64,000 nt of DNA, from positions 62,001 through 126,000 of the forward strand of contig NZ_JAIQDE010000006.1 of assembly GCF_020037015.1 (NCBI RefSeq). Direction: 5' to 3'. Shown in pieces: positions 13,638 to 21,269 of this stretch (position 1 is the first letter of the stretch; each line of letters starts with the position of its first letter). This DNA is from Corallococcus sp. AS-1-6. GTDB lineage: Bacteria > Myxococcota > Myxococcia > Myxococcales > Myxococcaceae. The notes under the pieces are model-generated. The model searched no databases. It saw nothing but the letters and a program-made list of their open reading frames with translations, and was not told the DNA's origin. Both the position numbers and the translations under genes were made by a program.

Positions 13638-14771
13638 GTGCCCTCTTCCACCCCACCCATGGACCTGCGCCGCCGGCTGGTGACGGAAGCGCTGGGCTGC
13701 GGGCTGGTGGTGGTGGCGCTGGAGGGGTCGCACCACGTCGCGGAGCACCTGGGCGCGAGCGCCACGGAGGGACGCCTCTTCATGTCCCTGTCCTGCGGCG
13801 CGGTGCTGGCGTGCCTCTTGTGGGTGCTGCGGCCGCTGTCGGGGGCGCACCTGAATCCGGCGCTCACCTTCGCGGACGCGCTGGGGGACCGCACGCCCTG
13901 GCGCGAGGTGCCGCTGTACGCGCTGGCGCAGTTGACCGGCAGCCTGGTGGGGCGGCTCGTCGCGCACCGCATGTGCAATGAGCCGCTGCTGCTCACCGCG
14001 AGGCTGCCCGCGGCGGACGGGGCGCGGTTCCTCACGGAGATGGTGGCCACGTTCGGGCTGCTGGTGGTGGTGCGGGGCTGCGTGCGCACGCGTCCGTCGG
14101 CGACGCCGCTGGCCATCGCGGGGTACGTGGCCGCGACGGTGTGGTTCACGGACTCGCGCTCGCTGGCGAACCCGGCGCTGGTGCTGGCCAGAGCGGCCAG
14201 CGCCCACCTGGGCGTGATGAGCCCGTGGGAGGTGGAGTCCTTCGTCGCGGCGCAGCTTCTGGGCGCGGCGCTGGCGGTGTTCCTCTTCCGGTGGCTGCTG
14301 GGCGGCCCGCCGAGGCCCGCGCCCACGGCCGTGGAGACCGTCGTCTTCGAGTGCTCGGAGGCAGGGCCCGCGCACCTGGCCGCCGCCCTCTTCAACACGC
14401 TGGCGCACCCGGACCGGGCGCGGGCGGTGGTGGCGCCGCCACCGGGCGCGGGCCTGGATGACGGGCCGCCGCCGGCGGTGGAGGCGCTGATGCGGGAGAC
14501 GAACCTGCGCGCCGCGCCGACGCGCGACCGGACCGTGCCCGCATCGCACTACGTCCTCATCGACGTCGCGGGCCATGCGCCCGGCATGGACGCACGCGTG
14601 AGGGAGCGTTGGTCGCTGCCCGCGCTGTCATTGAAGGACGAGGCCGGAGTGAAGGCGTTGCAGGCGGCGCTGCGGCTCCGGCTGCATCAGCTCCTCGCGC
14701 GCCAGGGCTGGGAGCGGCTGCACGTCATCCCCGGCGGCCCCGCTCCCGAAGGCCCCCGCGCGCTCACCTGA
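13638..14771 (+). CDS. Aquaporin-like channel fused to degenerate ArsC-like domain
   Basis: A 377-residue fusion. Residues 1-225 form a six-helix MIP/aquaporin channel with both pore motifs, Asn73-Pro-Ala and Asn178-Pro-Ala. The residue after the second NPA is Leu, not the Arg found in water-selective aquaporins. Residues 231-370 resemble a low-molecular-weight phosphatase/ArsC domain. It opens TVVFECSEAGPAHLAAALFN, where Cys239 sits at the catalytic position. The loop Arg and Ser of CX5R(S) are replaced by Ala245 and His246, and no other cysteine follows. Aquaporin and thioredoxin-type arsenate reductase occur together, and fused, in arsenic operons elsewhere; here the reductase half looks inactive. 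It starts 115 bases from divergent thiL. No arsR or arsenic genes are nearby. Confidence 0.75.
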   Translation: MPSSTPPMDLRRRLVTEALGCGLVVVALEGSHHVAEHLGASATEGRLFMSLSCGAVLACLLWVLRPLSGAHLNPALTFADALGDRTPWREVPLYALAQLTGSLVGRLVAHRMCNEPLLLTARLPAADGARFLTEMVATFGLLVVVRGCVRTRPSATPLAIAGYVAATVWFTDSRSLANPALVLARAASAHLGVMSPWEVESFVAAQLLGAALAVFLFRWLLGGPPRPAPTAVETVVFECSEAGPAHLAAALFNTLAHPDRARAVVAPPPGAGLDDGPPPAVEALMRETNLRAAPTRDRTVPASHYVLIDVAGHAPGMDARVRERWSLPALSLKDEAGVKALQAALRLRLHQLLARQGWERLHVIPGGPAPEGPRALT

Positions 14772-14851
14772 CGTGGGCCTCGGGTGCGTGACGGGGTGCG
14801 GCGTTGACGTCCGCCCGGCACGCGAGCAGAGAAAGAGGAGAGGGTTTTCGC

Positions 14852-16177
14852 ATGATGGAAGGTCTTCCCCCCGTCGTCTCCTGGCCGCCGCTGCAGACGC
14901 TGATGCGGCTGACGCTCGCGCTCGCGGTGGGCCTGTTCGTCGGGCTGGAGCGTGAGTGGCGCGGCAAGGAGGCCGGCCTGCGCACGTTCGGCTTCGCGGC
15001 GCTGCTGGGCGGCATGGGCGGCCTCCTGGGCCCGAACTTCGCGCTGCTCAGCCTCGCGCTGCTGGGCGTGCTGCTGTGCTTCCTCAACTGGCAGTCCCTG
15101 CGCGCCAACGGCGGCGCGGAGCTGACCACGTCCGCCGCGCTGCTCGTCACGGGCTTCACCGGCGTGCTGTGCGGCCTGGGCCACACGGTGACGCCCGCGG
15201 CGGTGGGGGTGACGACGGCGGGGCTGCTCGCGTGGAAGGAGCGGATGGCCACCTTCAGCCACAAAATCACCGCCGAGGAGCTGCGCAGCGCCATCCTGCT
15301 GGCCATCCTCGCCTTCGCCATCTACCCGGTGCTGCCCGCGCAGCCGGTGGACCCGTGGGGCCTCATCGAGCCGCGCGCCGCGTGGGTGACCGTCATCCTC
15401 ATCGCGGCCATCGGCTTCGTGAACTACCTGCTGTGGAAGATGTTCGGCACGCACGGCGTGGAGGTGACGGGGTTCCTGGGCGGGCTCGTCAACAGCACCG
15501 TCACCGTGGCGGAGCTGGCCAACCGCGTGCGCGAGACGTCCGGGCGCCTGCTGGACGTGGCCTACCGGGGCGTGATGCTGGCCACCGCCGCCATGGCGCT
15601 GCGCAATGCCGTGCTGCTGGGGCTGCTCTCCTTCCGAGCGCTGGTGGACTCCGCCATCCCGCTGGTGCTCATCCTCCTGTCCAGCACGGGCCTCGCGTTG
15701 ATGCGCTCGCGCACGGAGGCCACGCCCGGCGCCGAGCCCCCCGCCCTGCCCCTGAAGTCGCCCTTCTCCCTGCCGTCCGCGCTGAAGTTCGGCCTCATCT
15801 TCCTGGCGCTCCAGGTGGTGGGCACCGTGGGCCAGACGCTGCTGGGCCGCTGGGGCTTCTACGCGGTGAGCGCCGTGGGCGGACTGGTGTCCAGCGCGTC
15901 CGCGGTGGCGTCCGCCGCGTCGCTGTGCGCCAACGGCACCATCTCCCCCACGACGGCCGGGGTGGGCGCCATCATCGCGTCGCTCGCCAGCGCCGCCATC
16001 AACTTCGTCCTCGTGGCGCGCGTGTCGGAGCAGCGCTCGCTCACGCTCAGGCTGGGCCGCGCGCTGGGCGTGGTGATGCTGCTGGGGCTCGTGGGCGCGC
16101 TGGTGCAGACGCGCCTGCCGGAGTTCCTCCCCACCACGTCAGGAGGCCCGGGGCTCATCGAGCCCCACCCGCCCTGA
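14852..16177 (+). CDS. MgtC/SapB-type membrane protein with DUF4010
   Basis: A 441-residue polytopic membrane protein. The N-terminal third carries the MgtC signature LALAVGLFVGLEREWRGKEA and then LRTFGFAALLGG. The C-terminal two thirds match the DUF4010 type, with the segment GFLGGLVNSTVTVAELANR and about eight further hydrophobic helices. Proteins of this architecture are widespread; a role in ion transport or magnesium/envelope homeostasis is assumed from the MgtC domain but not shown. The ATG at 14852 follows the purine-rich GAAAGAGGAGAGGG, a strong ribosome binding site. It lies 80 bases after the aquaporin fusion on the same strand. Confidence 0.88.
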   Translation: MMEGLPPVVSWPPLQTLMRLTLALAVGLFVGLEREWRGKEAGLRTFGFAALLGGMGGLLGPNFALLSLALLGVLLCFLNWQSLRANGGAELTTSAALLVTGFTGVLCGLGHTVTPAAVGVTTAGLLAWKERMATFSHKITAEELRSAILLAILAFAIYPVLPAQPVDPWGLIEPRAAWVTVILIAAIGFVNYLLWKMFGTHGVEVTGFLGGLVNSTVTVAELANRVRETSGRLLDVAYRGVMLATAAMALRNAVLLGLLSFRALVDSAIPLVLILLSSTGLALMRSRTEATPGAEPPALPLKSPFSLPSALKFGLIFLALQVVGTVGQTLLGRWGFYAVSAVGGLVSSASAVASAASLCANGTISPTTAGVGAIIASLASAAINFVLVARVSEQRSLTLRLGRALGVVMLLGLVGALVQTRLPEFLPTTSGGPGLIEPHPP

Positions 16178-16180
16178 CCG

Positions 16181-17677
16181 TCAGAAGCGGTCGGGCTCCG
16201 GCATGGGCGGCGCGGCCGTCAGCCCGCGCTCCTGCATGGGCGGGTGCAGCGGCAGTTGGACGATGAAGCGCGAGCCGTGGCCGAACTCGCTCTCCACGCG
16301 CACCCGGCCGCCGTGGCCCTCCACCAGGCTCTTCACGATGGCCAGCCCCAGCCCCGCGCCGCCGAACTCGCGCGTGGAGCTGCCGTCCACCTGGTAGAAG
16401 CTCTGGAAGATGCGCTCGAACTCCTCGGCGCGGATGCCCACGCCGGTGTCCTCCACGCTGATGCGGTAGCCGGGCACGCCCAGCTCCTGCTGCATCGCCG
16501 CGTCCGACAGCGTCACCTTCACGCGGCCGCCCGCGGGCGTGAACTTCACCGCGTTGGCCAGCAGGTTCACCACCACCTGGCGCAGCTTGTCCAGGTCACC
16601 CGCGAGCCGGGGCTGCGGCGTGTGCGGCAGCCGCACCTCCAGCTCCAACCCCTTGCGCTGCGCCTGCGGCAGCACGCTGGAGACCGCCGTCTGGATGACG
16701 TAGCCGGGGTCCACCGGCGCCATGGACAGGCGCAGGCGCCCGGCTTCAATCTGGCTCAGGTCCAGCAGCGAGGAGATCATCGAGAGGAGCGTCTCGCCCT
16801 TCTCCACGATGGTGCGCACGTACTGGAGCTGCTCCGGGTTGAGCGGCCCCGCCAGCCCCTCCGCCATCATCTCCGAGTAGCCCAGGATGGACGCGAGCGG
16901 CGTGCGCAGCTCGTGGCTCACCGTGCCCAGGAAGGTGGACTTCAGCCGGTCCAGCTCCTTGAGCCGCGCGTTCGCCTGGAGCAGCCGCGCGTTCTGCGCC
17001 TCCAGCTCGCGGTGCACCTCCAGCGTGGACTCCAGGTGCAGGTGCGTGGCCAGGTACGCCTTCTGGCCGCTGGCCACGAGCGCGCCCAGCACCTGGCCGA
17101 AGTGGCCCAGCACCTGCGCGGCGGTGCGCTCCGGCACGCGGCGCACGCGGCCCAAGAGCTCCTGCGCGCGCTCCAGGTCCAGGCCGTGGATGCCGGTGAG
17201 CGTCTGGGGGAAGTCCGTCAGCTCCTCCGGCGTGAAGGGCCCCAGGATGACCCGGCCCAAGAGGTCGCCGTCCCAGCGCACCGGCATCACCACGTAGCGC
17301 AGGCCGGTGAAGCAGGTGAGCGCGATGAGGCCCGCCGCTTCGGAGACGTCCCCGTCCGCCACGCGCCCGCCGGCCTCCGGCAGCACGGGGCCGTCCTTCA
17401 CCCGGCCCACCATGGCGGTGCACGCGTGGCGGCCGTCCGGGAAGGAGAAGACGTAGGCGCAGAAGTCGCCATGGCCCACCTTCACGTCCGCCAGCTTGTT
17501 GCCGCGCGTGTCCAGCACCTTGATGCCCACGCGGTACAGGTCGCTGAAGCCCTTCACCACCTCCGTGAAGGACGGCAGGTCCAGCAGGTCCCCCAGCGAC
17601 AGCCGCCGCTGGAGCGCGGACTCGCGCCGGGGCACGCTCGCGGTGTTCCGGGGCCCTCCGCCTGACGCGCCGCTCAT
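16181..17677 (-). CDS. PocR-domain sensor histidine kinase
   Basis: A 498-residue cytoplasmic kinase. Residues about 25-190 form a PocR-type sensory domain, seen in the opening FTEVVKGFSDLYRVGIKVLD and in the Cys-containing segments GDFCAYVFS and ALTCFTGLRYVVMPV. A coiled-coil helix (about 215-245) leads into a HisKA domain with phospho-acceptor in SHELRTP (about 254) and an ATPase domain with LLANAVKF, EDTGVGI and GAGLGLAIVK. There are no membrane helices. PocR domains bind small hydrocarbon derivatives in known regulators. The gene overlaps the GTPase gene upstream by four bases (start within its stop), so the two products are probably made together and may interact. No cognate regulator is adjacent. 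Confidence 0.88.
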   Translation of the reverse strand: MSGASGGGPRNTASVPRRESALQRRLSLGDLLDLPSFTEVVKGFSDLYRVGIKVLDTRGNKLADVKVGHGDFCAYVFSFPDGRHACTAMVGRVKDGPVLPEAGGRVADGDVSEAAGLIALTCFTGLRYVVMPVRWDGDLLGRVILGPFTPEELTDFPQTLTGIHGLDLERAQELLGRVRRVPERTAAQVLGHFGQVLGALVASGQKAYLATHLHLESTLEVHRELEAQNARLLQANARLKELDRLKSTFLGTVSHELRTPLASILGYSEMMAEGLAGPLNPEQLQYVRTIVEKGETLLSMISSLLDLSQIEAGRLRLSMAPVDPGYVIQTAVSSVLPQAQRKGLELEVRLPHTPQPRLAGDLDKLRQVVVNLLANAVKFTPAGGRVKVTLSDAAMQQELGVPGYRISVEDTGVGIRAEEFERIFQSFYQVDGSSTREFGGAGLGLAIVKSLVEGHGGRVRVESEFGHGSRFIVQLPLHPPMQERGLTAAPPMPEPDRF

Positions 17678-18399
17678 GGCGCCCTCCCGCTCTCCCTGCC
17701 GCCAGGCATGGCGCCGGGGCCGTACCGCCCCTCCAGCGCCGTGCCGCTCAGGTCGATGTGCCGGAAGATCTGCCCCAGGAACTCTTCCTCGCTCAGGCCC
17801 ACGTTGCGCGACAGTTGGGCCCGGCCCTCCAGCGCGCGCCAGGCCGTCTGCACCACGGCGTGGAAGGTCTCCACCACGCCCTCGCCCCGCACGGCCACGG
17901 AGCCCACCACCGGCTGGCTGCCCCGGCGCTGCACCTCCGCCAGCTCCTCGTCCGTGAGGCTGTCGGGCAGGTCGCGCTTATTGAACTGGATGACCACCGG
18001 CACCTGCGTGGGGTCCAGCTCCATCTCCCGCAGGTTCTCCTGCAGGTTGCGCCAGTAGGCGTTGTTCTCCTGGGCCGCCCCGCGCCGGCTGTCCGCGATG
18101 AAGACCACCGCGTCCGCGCCCTGGAGCACCACCCGCCGCGTGGCGTTGTGGATGACCTGCCCGGGCACGGTGAAGAGCTTCACCTTCACCTTGAAGCCCG
18201 TGGAGGTGGAGAAGAAGACGGGCAAGAGGTCGAAGAAGAGGGTCCGGTCGTCGTGGGTATCCACCGACAGCAGGCGCCCTCGCACGTCCGGCCGCGCTCG
18301 CGCGTGCAGCTTGCGCAAGTTCGTCGTCTTCCCGCTGAGCCCGGGGCCGTAATAGACGATCTTGAGCGTCAGCTCGCGCTGGGCGTGGTTGAGTTGCAA
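17674..18399 (-). CDS. MglA-like small GTPase
   Basis: A 241-residue Ras-like GTPase of the MglA group. The P-loop GPGLSGKTT is at residues 18-26, preceded by KIVYY as in MglA. The switch region reads DRTLFFDLLP, then TVPGQVIHNATRRVV, and the base-specificity motif is FNKRDLP. MglA controls gliding polarity in Myxococcus; this is a paralogue rather than MglA itself, since it has a longer C-terminus (about 45 extra residues after the domain) and no mglB neighbour. It is coupled to the PocR-domain kinase downstream, suggesting a GTPase-kinase signalling module. A TATA-rich element lies about 40 bases before the start. Confidence 0.88.
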   Translation of the reverse strand: MQLNHAQRELTLKIVYYGPGLSGKTTNLRKLHARARPDVRGRLLSVDTHDDRTLFFDLLPVFFSTSTGFKVKVKLFTVPGQVIHNATRRVVLQGADAVVFIADSRRGAAQENNAYWRNLQENLREMELDPTQVPVVIQFNKRDLPDSLTDEELAEVQRRGSQPVVGSVAVRGEGVVETFHAVVQTAWRALEGRAQLSRNVGLSEEEFLGQIFRHIDLSGTALEGRYGPGAMPGGRESGRAP

Positions 18400-19388: not shown

Positions 19389-21269
19389 ATGAAACCGCTC
19401 GCGGAACTGCTGCGTCATCTCTCGCGTCCTGGAATCACCGAGCTGGCCCTGGCCAGCGGCCGTCCTCCGATGGTGCGAGGCGCCAACGGCTACGAGCCCA
19501 TTGATCCAGGCGCCCTCTCCACCGATGAGCTCGTGAAGGCCCTCCAGGCGATGGTGGGCATGGCGCGCGCGTCCTCGGTATCGGAGACGCCGGTGCAGTG
19601 GACGGTGAACGCCACGGGCCTGGGCTCCCTCAACATCGCGGCGGTGCGCCGGGGCGAGCTGATGAACGTGCGCCTCACGCGAGGCACGGAGGGCGCGCCA
19701 GCCGCGGCGGCTCCAGCGGCCGCGGCGGCTCCGGCGACCGCGGCTCCGGCGGCACCCGCCGCGCCCACGCGCACACCCTACGCGGGCATGCCGGCCGTGT
19801 CCGCGCAGGCGCCTACGCGCACGCCCTACGCGGGAGTGCCCGCGGTCTCCGCTCCCGTGGACGCGTCCGCGCGGGCCGCGCAGCCCGGTGGCATGGGCGC
19901 GGGAGCCGCCGCGCGCGGAGCTCCTGGCACGGCCTCCCACGCGGGTGCGCCTTCACACGCGAGCGCACCTTCACACGCGAGCGCGGCCGGGTACGGGGGT
20001 GCTCCTTCACACGCGGGTGCTCCTTCACACGCGGGCGCTCCGGCCCACTCCACCGCCGGCGCGAATCCCCCCGCGCGGATCATCCCCATCTCGCGCGCGA
20101 CGTCCGCTCCGGGCCGCGACCTGACCGTGCTGCTGGAGCAGGCGCGCAGCATGGGCGCCAGCGACCTGCACCTGGTGGCCGGTCGGCCTCCGCTGCTGCG
20201 CCTGGCCGGGGAGCTGCTCCCGCAGGACACGCCGCTGTCCCCGGAGACGGTGGAGCGGCTGCTGCTCCCCATCATCCCGGAGCGGCTGCGGCCCGTGCTG
20301 GAGAAGGACGGCAGCGTGGACTTCGCGCTGGACTCCGAGGAGACCGGCCGCTTCCGCGTCAACGTGGGCCGCCAGCGCACGGGCCTCAAGGGCACCTTCC
20401 GCGTCATCGCCCGCGAAATCCCCACCTTGGAGTCGCTGGGCCTGCCCCCGGACATCGCCAAGGCCACGCACCACCACCAGGGCCTCATCGTGCTCACCGG
20501 CCCCTCCGGCCACGGCAAGACGAGCACGCTCGCGGCGCTGGTGGACATCATCAACCGCGAGACCACGCACCACGTGCTCACCGTGGAGGACCCGGTGGAG
20601 TACGTGCACCCGCGCAAGCGCGCCCTCATCAGCCAGCGCGAGGTGGGCACCAGCACCCGCACCTTCGCCAGCGCCCTCAAGGGCAGCCTCCGCGAGGACC
20701 CGGACGTCATCGTCGTGGGCGAGCTGCGCGACACGGAGACCGTGCGCATGGCGCTCGCCGCCAGCGAGACGGGCCACCTGCTCATCAGCACCATGAACAC
20801 GCCCAGCGCGGCGAAGACCATCGACCGGCTCATCGACCTCTTCCCGCCGGGAGACCAGCAGCAGGTGCGCCTGTCGCTCTCCAGCGGCCTGCGCCTCATC
20901 GTCAGCCAGCGGCTGATGCCCGCCACGGACGGCAAGTCCCTGGTCGCCGCCGCCGAGGTGCTCACCGGCTCCGTGGCCCTGGGCAACCTCATCCGCGACA
21001 ACAAGACGTTCCAGATCCCCTCCCTCCAGCAGCGCGGCAAGTCGCTGGGCATCATCCGCTTCGAGGACTCGCTCGCGGACCTGGCCCGCTCCGGCAAGGC
21101 GACGCTGGAGACGGTGAAGGGCTTCGCGGAGAACCCGGACGAGATTGAAGCCATGGTGACGGGCAAGCGGCCCGGCGCCGCCCCCACCGTGCCCACGCCC
21201 GCCAGCGCCCAGGAGGGCGCGCGGATGCTGTCCAAGGTGGGCTCACTGCTTGGCAAGAAGGGCGCCTGA
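19389..21269 (+). CDS. PilT-like ATPase with extra N-terminal domain
   Basis: A 626-residue protein. Residues 1-110 form an extra domain, possibly a second copy of the PilT N-terminal domain (GITELALASGRPPMVRG resembles ASDLHLVAGRPPLLRL at about 255). Next comes an Ala/Pro/Ser/His-rich linker (about 110-235) with short repeats. The PilT/VirB11 ATPase domain follows, with Walker A GPSGHGKTS (about 371-379), EDPVEYVH and VIVVGELRD (about 440). The family His box (usually TLHT) reads STMNT here, losing the His, and the AIRNLIRE motif is altered to ALGNLIRD. It may be a regulatory rather than a force-generating paralogue. One base separates it from the next pilT-like gene. Confidence 0.88.
   Translation: MKPLAELLRHLSRPGITELALASGRPPMVRGANGYEPIDPGALSTDELVKALQAMVGMARASSVSETPVQWTVNATGLGSLNIAAVRRGELMNVRLTRGTEGAPAAAAPAAAAAPATAAPAAPAAPTRTPYAGMPAVSAQAPTRTPYAGVPAVSAPVDASARAAQPGGMGAGAAARGAPGTASHAGAPSHASAPSHASAAGYGGAPSHAGAPSHAGAPAHSTAGANPPARIIPISRATSAPGRDLTVLLEQARSMGASDLHLVAGRPPLLRLAGELLPQDTPLSPETVERLLLPIIPERLRPVLEKDGSVDFALDSEETGRFRVNVGRQRTGLKGTFRVIAREIPTLESLGLPPDIAKATHHHQGLIVLTGPSGHGKTSTLAALVDIINRETTHHVLTVEDPVEYVHPRKRALISQREVGTSTRTFASALKGSLREDPDVIVVGELRDTETVRMALAASETGHLLISTMNTPSAAKTIDRLIDLFPPGDQQQVRLSLSSGLRLIVSQRLMPATDGKSLVAAAEVLTGSVALGNLIRDNKTFQIPSLQQRGKSLGIIRFEDSLADLARSGKATLETVKGFAENPDEIEAMVTGKRPGAAPTVPTPASAQEGARMLSKVGSLLGKKGA
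19939..20042 (+). repeat. Low-complexity repeats in the PilT-like linker
   Basis: About five imperfect copies of an 18-base unit (GCTCCTTCACACGCGGGT-like) encode repeated GAPSHA hexapeptides. A second pair of longer repeats lies just upstream (about 19762-19852), encoding two copies of TRTPYAGxPAVSA. Slippage could change the linker length. Confidence 0.75.

Follow-up and report, generated by a model that had tools for sequence, protein, structure and literature searches.

We find that a single gene of the myxobacterium Corallococcus sp. AS-1-6 encodes an aquaporin-type channel and, in the same polypeptide, a domain derived from an arsenate reductase (ArsC) that has lost its catalytic residues, and that this domain is nevertheless kept under selection in orthologs of the fusion-bearing Myxococcaceae. 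Catalytic aquaporin–reductase fusions are already known; for the conserved family described here, dead but kept and with a rebuilt pore, no description was found in the literature covered, from which subscription papers were mostly absent.

The fusion gene and its surroundings

The gene occupies positions 13638..14771 (+ strand) of the window, that is, of the whole 64,000-nucleotide stretch of DNA analysed. It is a single open reading frame (ORF) of 377 codons that starts with GTG at 13638 (alternative ATG at 13659, residue 8) and joins an aquaporin (residues 9–222) to an ArsC-derived domain (residues 231–363), the architecture of the known fusion enzymes. The first-pass annotation had read it as an aquaporin fused to a dead ArsC-like domain, and the Pfam MIP match, a profile comparison with hhalign and the absence of catalytic residues, all given below, bear this out. 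A scan of the locus for promoters and terminators found none of either. By Pfam, the genes around the fusion encode an AIRS-domain protein, which we take to be thiL, an MgtC-DUF4010 protein and a PocR kinase. No arsenic gene was recognised among these neighbours, and the neighbouring genes place the fusion outside the arsR/arsC setting expected of an AqpS-type arsenite channel. Further along the window, the PocR kinase (16181–18399, − strand) is a histidine kinase whose sensory domain is PocR; directly upstream of it, on the same strand, lies a gene for a small GTPase with an Arf-type Pfam match. Positions 19389–21269 encode a T2SSE/PilT-like ATPase (Pfam T2SSE at residues 307–512) whose first part looks PilT-N-like by eye and whose Ala/Ser/His-rich linker is encoded over 18- and 48-base repeats.

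The C-terminal domain derives from ArsC

The tail (residues 231–363; 14328..14726, + strand) is homologous to free ArsC. When 28 fusion C-terminal domains were compared by hhalign with 13 free ArsC-type proteins from relatives (11 are encoded near an AqpS gene), the probability was 98.4 and the E value 6.2e-15; a single BLASTP comparison of the window domain with one free ArsC gave 34% over 141 columns (E = 1e-16). These values rule out a chance resemblance. Searched against the phylum, the C-domain profile matched other genes at E values from 1.5e-14, and the matches inspected (G000:C5, G032:C10, G042 and G051) are free ArsC genes; the one in G032, an ordinary free ArsC, lies near an ORF that by its sequence seems to encode an Acr3-type exporter. 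Pfam returned no ArsC family for the 28 tails at E values up to 1; its three weak matches, each in a single member, were to unrelated families, and the tail profile matched nothing relevant among PDB sequences.

A model of the tail alone, built from an alignment that contained free ArsC rows, has the ArsC/LMW-phosphatase fold (pLDDT 81, pTM 0.78) and resembles ArsC 1y1l (Z 14.4, r.m.s.d. 2.4, 117 aligned) and 1jfv, 1lju and 2cd7 (Z 13.8), with a Foldseek E value of 1.4e-5. In a full-length model, where tail rows came only from two other fusions (L054 and L076) and free ArsC rows were absent, the tail reached a pLDDT of about 41–72 and showed the same order of elements together with a short last strand. 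The phosphatase-like C-terminal fold supposed in the first-pass annotation is thus supported by the match to 1y1l, with the free ArsC rows in the alignment, and the relationship to free ArsC by the profile alignment. Compared with pI258-type thioredoxin-coupled ArsC and LMW protein tyrosine phosphatases, the tail shares the fold but lacks both the CX5R loop and the redox pair, and in most other genera it is shortened, by about 20–30 residues. Among the best-kept parts of the domain are the last helix and its GW-x-RL motif (residues 338–361; 14649..14720, + strand), and residues identical in 42/42 orthologs include A248, W325, L345, L353, G357, W358, R360 and L361.

The fused domain has lost the residues of catalysis

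The domain opens with TVVFEC(239)SEAGPAHLAAALFN where free ArsC has TVIFACVHNAGRSQMAAAFFN, so that the Cys is kept and the Arg is gone. Aligned with free ArsC, the anion loop survives as a remnant, FECSEAGPAH (residues 237–246; 14346..14375, + strand), one residue short and without Arg. Along the rest of the protein, the CVHNAGRS ... TMGCGDACP ... DDWPLEDP of free ArsC stands against C-SEAGPAH ... LIDVAGHAP ... ERWSLPAL in the window tail; no Cys occupies the places of those in TMGCGDACP, which agrees with the earlier reading that the loop Arg and both redox cysteines are missing. The loss is general. Across 44 dead fusions, made up of the 42 main-clade orthologs and a second group of two (L039 and L040), no member has the loop Arg, the first of the redox cysteines or the Asp of the DP motif, and one has the second redox Cys, whereas free ArsC proteins have the loop Arg in 13/13 and each redox Cys in 12/13. 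The pattern CX5R[ST] occurs in 0/44, and the sole CX5R (L134) lies outside the loop. In 42/42 of the main clade the loop has lost a residue; L039 and L040 retain its full length. Judged from these residues, the fused ArsC-fold domain cannot be a working reductase.

Elsewhere in the genome of the window, an intact free ArsC lies beside an Acr3 gene (G000:C5); across the genus, Acr3 is found above the cut-off in 4/16 genomes. The dead-fusion loci searched yielded no free ArsC that carries the loop motif. The same genome holds a further free ArsC-like protein (L002, G000:C15:142121–142531), which keeps the loop CTHNAGRS and, with both redox cysteines absent (LVTLGGLPDAP), no longer has the chemistry that depends on residues outside the loop.

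Selection holds the tail, more loosely than the channel

The ratio of non-synonymous to synonymous change (NG86 dN/dS) in the genus of the window (14 sequences, 91 pairs) was 0.139 for the channel (5–95% 0.112–0.189) and 0.300 for the tail (0.243–0.371); in a second genus (18 sequences) it was 0.113 and 0.446 (0.379–0.516), respectively, and the 8-residue linker gave 0.87 (85 pairs). For the tail, 19 close pairs without overlap gave values from 0.07 to 0.52, below 1 in 19/19. Neutral evolution was also simulated along a tree of channel third positions (100 runs under each of six settings, indels left out), and on average 8.9 to 37.1 of 42 tips acquired an in-frame stop, with 2 as the lowest single run, against 0/42 interrupted frames among the complete orthologs. 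With dN/dS below 1 and frames intact, the tail is held, more loosely than the channel, and a neutral relic as the sole explanation of the tail is ruled out by the same two results.

A slowly eroding relic is a different matter: the reductase would have become redundant given the other ArsC, and only the channel would count. The tail does evolve two to four times faster than the channel (0.30 vs 0.14; 0.45 vs 0.11), it is shorter in most other genera, and the genome of the window has its intact ArsC and Acr3. The 19 close pairs, the missing stops and the invariance of GW-x-RL and of parts of the last helix in 42 orthologs all speak against erosion, and we consider it unlikely, if the best placed of the alternatives. 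For an inactive domain with a role, as the first-pass annotation had proposed, the selection data and open frames favour the general part of the claim, a domain that is kept and non-catalytic; the oxyanion or arsenite sensing offered as its role is weighed below.

The channel has departed from its AqpS-like relatives

The channel half (residues 9–222; 13662..14303, + strand) belongs to the MIP/aquaporin superfamily by profile, motifs and fold. Pfam MIP matches the fusion at E = 2.2e-21 (77.1 bits vs a cut-off of 25), and the NCBIfam MIP model matches it under its curated cut-off (81 vs 171 bits). The AF2 model has a pLDDT of at least 90 in most ten-residue blocks, with 72 as the lowest, and aligns with AqpM (2evu) at Z 27.3 and r.m.s.d. 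2.1 Å over 214 residues. Both NPA motifs are present, as had been noted on first inspection together with the Leu that follows the second: N73-P-A (13854..13862, + strand; N73 kept in 44/44 fusions) and N178-P-A-L181 (14169..14180, + strand; N178 in 44/44, L181 in 42/42 of the main clade). The same inspection had noted that this Leu replaces the usual Arg, which is not peculiar to the protein. Among 95 AqpS-like relatives the position is occupied by V in 84, I in 7, M in 2, A in 1 and L in 1, with Arg in 0/95; absence of Arg is the norm of the clade, so Leu181 says nothing about a special gate, and an altered gate through a missing Arg is ruled out.

Other positions set the fusion apart. Measured against these 95 proteins (94 distinct, L037 and L057 being the same contig; L076 included), 27 channel sites carry a residue common to at least 95% of the 42 orthologs and found in less than 10% of the relatives, among them T21C, V29E, G32H, I33H, R37H, L46R, N49M, V106R, F113C, Y168V, S/A172D, T174R, F176L and V181L. 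Five ionisable residues form a clade-specific cluster, E29-x2-H32-H33-x2-E36-H37, which the alignment and the AF2 model place at the end of helix 10–37 (13722..13748, + strand). In the main clade E29 is found in 40/42 and H32, H33 and H37 each in 42/42, E36 being ancestral; the commonest residues of the relatives at positions 29, 32, 33 and 37 are V, G, I and R. R174, on the loop that leads to the second NPA (14157..14159, + strand), replaces a Thr and is as strict (R in 42/42 of the main clade, T in 95/95 relatives). In the AF2 model R46 stands at the start of helix 42–68 and R106 in the later part of helix 88–112; by aquaporin topology, the helix ends holding E29–H37, R46 and R106 presumably face outwards. 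On the alignment and the predicted helices, the new charged and His residues E29, H32, H33, H37, R46, R106, D172 and R174 would lie mostly in the outer half of the pore. Cysteines are fixed too, C21, C59 and C148 in 42/42 and C113 in 41/42, C148 also being common in relatives.

We take positions 53, 168, 175 and 181 to be the four aquaporin filter positions; the assignment comes from aligning the fusion with an AqpZ-like protein encoded in the same genome, and because a loop is two residues shorter in the fusion the assignment of 168 (H5) depends on that alignment. The main clade has A or C at 53 in 41/42, V168 and L181 in 42/42 each and S175 in 38/42. Of the AqpS set (T53, Y168, S175 and V/I181 in the window numbering) only S175 is retained, so that three of four positions have moved from near-invariant AqpS states, and R174 adjoins one of the four.

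AqpS of Sinorhizobium meliloti is an aquaglyceroporin of an ars operon, according to three papers (PMC6205960, PMC4435449, PMC4531530). The fusion resembles AqpS in belonging to the same channel clade, with Ensifer and Sinorhizobium AqpS-type genes (L071 and L131) in the trees, and in having two NPA motifs with a hydrophobic residue for Arg after the second; it differs in standing outside an ars operon, in near-fixed radical changes at the filter and outer mouth, in its dead ArsC tail and in its frequent MgtC neighbour. The channel might still export arsenite, or methylarsenite, fed by the separate intact ArsC. Its place by sequence in the AqpS clade, the retained NPA motifs and Arg-less filter and the ArsC elsewhere in the genome are in keeping with such efflux. 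Against it stand the three changed filter positions with their new charges and, in the genome of the window, an intact Acr3 exporter, although the Acr3 objection is weak, since the gene passed the cut-off in so few genomes of the genus. We regard an efflux role as improbable.

Distribution and origin of the fusion

The fusion was found in 44/96 Myxococcaceae genomes searched: in 16/16 of the genus of the window (two cut by contig ends) and in genomes of five further genera. Complete orthologs number 42, the window copy included. One of the fusion-bearing genera includes Myxococcus, with a fusion in Myxococcus qinghaiensis (L054); for M. xanthus, a transporter survey counts two MIP proteins (PMC3924187). 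In one genome (G006; L189, G006:C1, about 8476427–8476534) only some 34 last residues of the fusion were found, probably the relic of a lost gene.

In five genomes (G042, G051, G098, G103 and G137) an AqpS gene is followed by a separate ArsC with an intact loop, which makes fusion of such an aqpS–arsC pair the simplest origin. At two loci of Actinomycetota (L125 and L130), two or three distinct ArsC-like ORFs lie near the AqpS gene. Three non-AqpS MIPs, from the genome of the window and two related ones, are separated in the tree, with support 100/100, from 36 AqpS-like rows that include the fusions, and the fusions group with the MIPs of ars operons, on a branch of 1.75–2.0 changes per column. 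The placement of L039 and L040 varies: in a quick tree of 117 rows they stand apart from the main clade, whereas a careful tree of 62 rows joins them to it with support of 61/45 and a long-branch warning. A topology that groups nine main-clade rows with five operonic Myxococcaceae AqpS rows was not rejected (p 0.60). The two dead-fusion groups may therefore be one clade or two, as far as these sequences tell, and the link to MgtC described below one event or two independent ones.

Intact relatives show what the fused domain has given up. Two papers (PMC6205960, PMC12838822), which attribute the finding to Wu, Song and Beitz 2010, describe the aquaporin–ArsC fusions of actinobacteria as catalytic proteins that give resistance to arsenate. 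These enzymes have the architecture seen here, an aquaporin followed by an LMW-phosphatase-type ArsC domain; the myxobacterial fusion differs in lacking the catalytic residues. One of the comparison proteins, from an Acidimicrobiaceae bacterium (L076), is an aquaporin–ArsC fusion with an intact loop, CIHNAGRS, and redox cysteines, and on these residues is likely to be a working fusion. It adjoins a further ArsC-like ORF.

An MgtC-family gene recurs downstream of the fusion

Directly downstream of the fusion, on the + strand (14852..16177), lies a gene for a membrane protein of 441 residues with Pfam MgtC and DUF4010 domains. Its ATG at 14852 follows AGAGGAGAG, and it starts 80 bp past the stop of the fusion. 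Pfam, run on the longer frame 14804–16177, gave MgtC at 4.1e-13 (50.2 bits vs a cut-off of 31.4) and DUF4010 at 6.7e-51. By that cut-off the protein belongs with Salmonella MgtC and its relatives, but it carries DUF4010; no paper that joins DUF4010 and MgtC was found in the literature covered.

An MgtC gene stands directly downstream on the same strand in 24/42 main-clade orthologs and, as a different, shorter type, in 2/2 of the second dead-fusion group (L039/L151 and L040/L152). Searches by phmmer with three MgtC queries, over ORFs of at least 70 residues at 171 loci (L001–L171, some genomes being represented twice), found 40 ORFs, each just downstream of a dead fusion and on its strand. None was found at the 95 other AqpS loci, mostly covered for up to 6 kb per side, with some contigs short. 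An MgtC-DUF4010 ortholog is present in 25/96 genomes, and the fusion is present in 25/25 of these; in G026 the ortholog is a 108-residue piece on a contig other than that of the fusion. Six genomes inspected have 2–4 MgtC-family genes each, so adjacency to the fusion by chance is unlikely. The pair occurs in three neighbourhoods (the genus of the window with g5; g19; and G041), which had no other gene seen in common within about 8 kb per side, counting the genes of a simple caller; that caller missed the fusion in 7/20 loci, and the neighbourhoods were compared with tblastn too. Where MgtC is present, fusion and MgtC are probably made from one operon. With 18/42 complete orthologs lacking an adjacent MgtC, it is not obligatory. 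In one genus the tail dN/dS was 0.54 without MgtC and 0.38 with it, the channel being unchanged; over the 19 close pairs the medians were 0.33 vs 0.23, which is not significant (p 0.24).

The remaining alternative, raised in the first-pass annotation, is that the dead domain senses an oxyanion or arsenite and gates the channel; we rate it the least probable of all, because although the ArsC fold is kept, Cys239 persists in 34/42 main-clade orthologs and other cysteines of the channel are fixed (C21, C59, C148 and C113), the anion loop is short throughout the main clade, its Arg is lost in 44/44, Cys239 is Ser in the other 8/42, and what recurs beside the dead fusions is MgtC, with no free loop-motif ArsC at these loci, no arsenic gene recognised among the window's neighbours and the intact ArsC and Acr3 lying elsewhere. 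The ArsC opening and Cys239 that the annotation reported are indeed kept in the window protein, but Cys239 does not stand as a conserved residue, and its replacement by Ser leaves binding of arsenite or an oxyanion in the old pocket unsupported.

Proposed role of the fusion

We suggest that an AqpS–ArsC system was put to a new use, as a channel that carries a non-catalytic domain in the cytoplasm and probably works with MgtC, a reading to which we give about an even chance. An AqpS-type arsenite channel, encoded beside a working ArsC, would have been fused to it in the Myxococcaceae and would then have taken on a new job. The reductase chemistry has been lost, as the sequences show, and the domain is kept under purifying selection, presumably in the cytoplasm as a structural or regulatory scaffold with no enzyme role. 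The pore has been rebuilt around a small, hydrophobic filter (A or C at position 53, V168, S or A at 175 and L181). It would passively conduct some small solute, though not arsenite derived from arsenate, and opening or assembly of the channel may depend on the ArsC-like tail together with MgtC.

A more specific form of this proposal, which we put forward tentatively and think rather unlikely as it stands, is a two-gene myxobacterial membrane system in which the channel and the MgtC-type protein form a cation- or stress-responsive gated channel, the dead reductase serves as the coupling domain, and E29, H32, H33, E36 and H37, with R46, R106, R174 and D172, make up an outer site like those for divalent metals. 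A similar pair, with the second MgtC type, would exist in another group, whose fusions (L039 and L040) are without the His cluster.

For the family, these results remove the label of an arsenic gene that transferred annotation might attach to the fusion. The recurring MgtC neighbour offers a testable handle on the MgtC-DUF4010 proteins, and the fusion itself provides a clean natural case in which the partner enzyme of a channel has turned into a non-catalytic domain.
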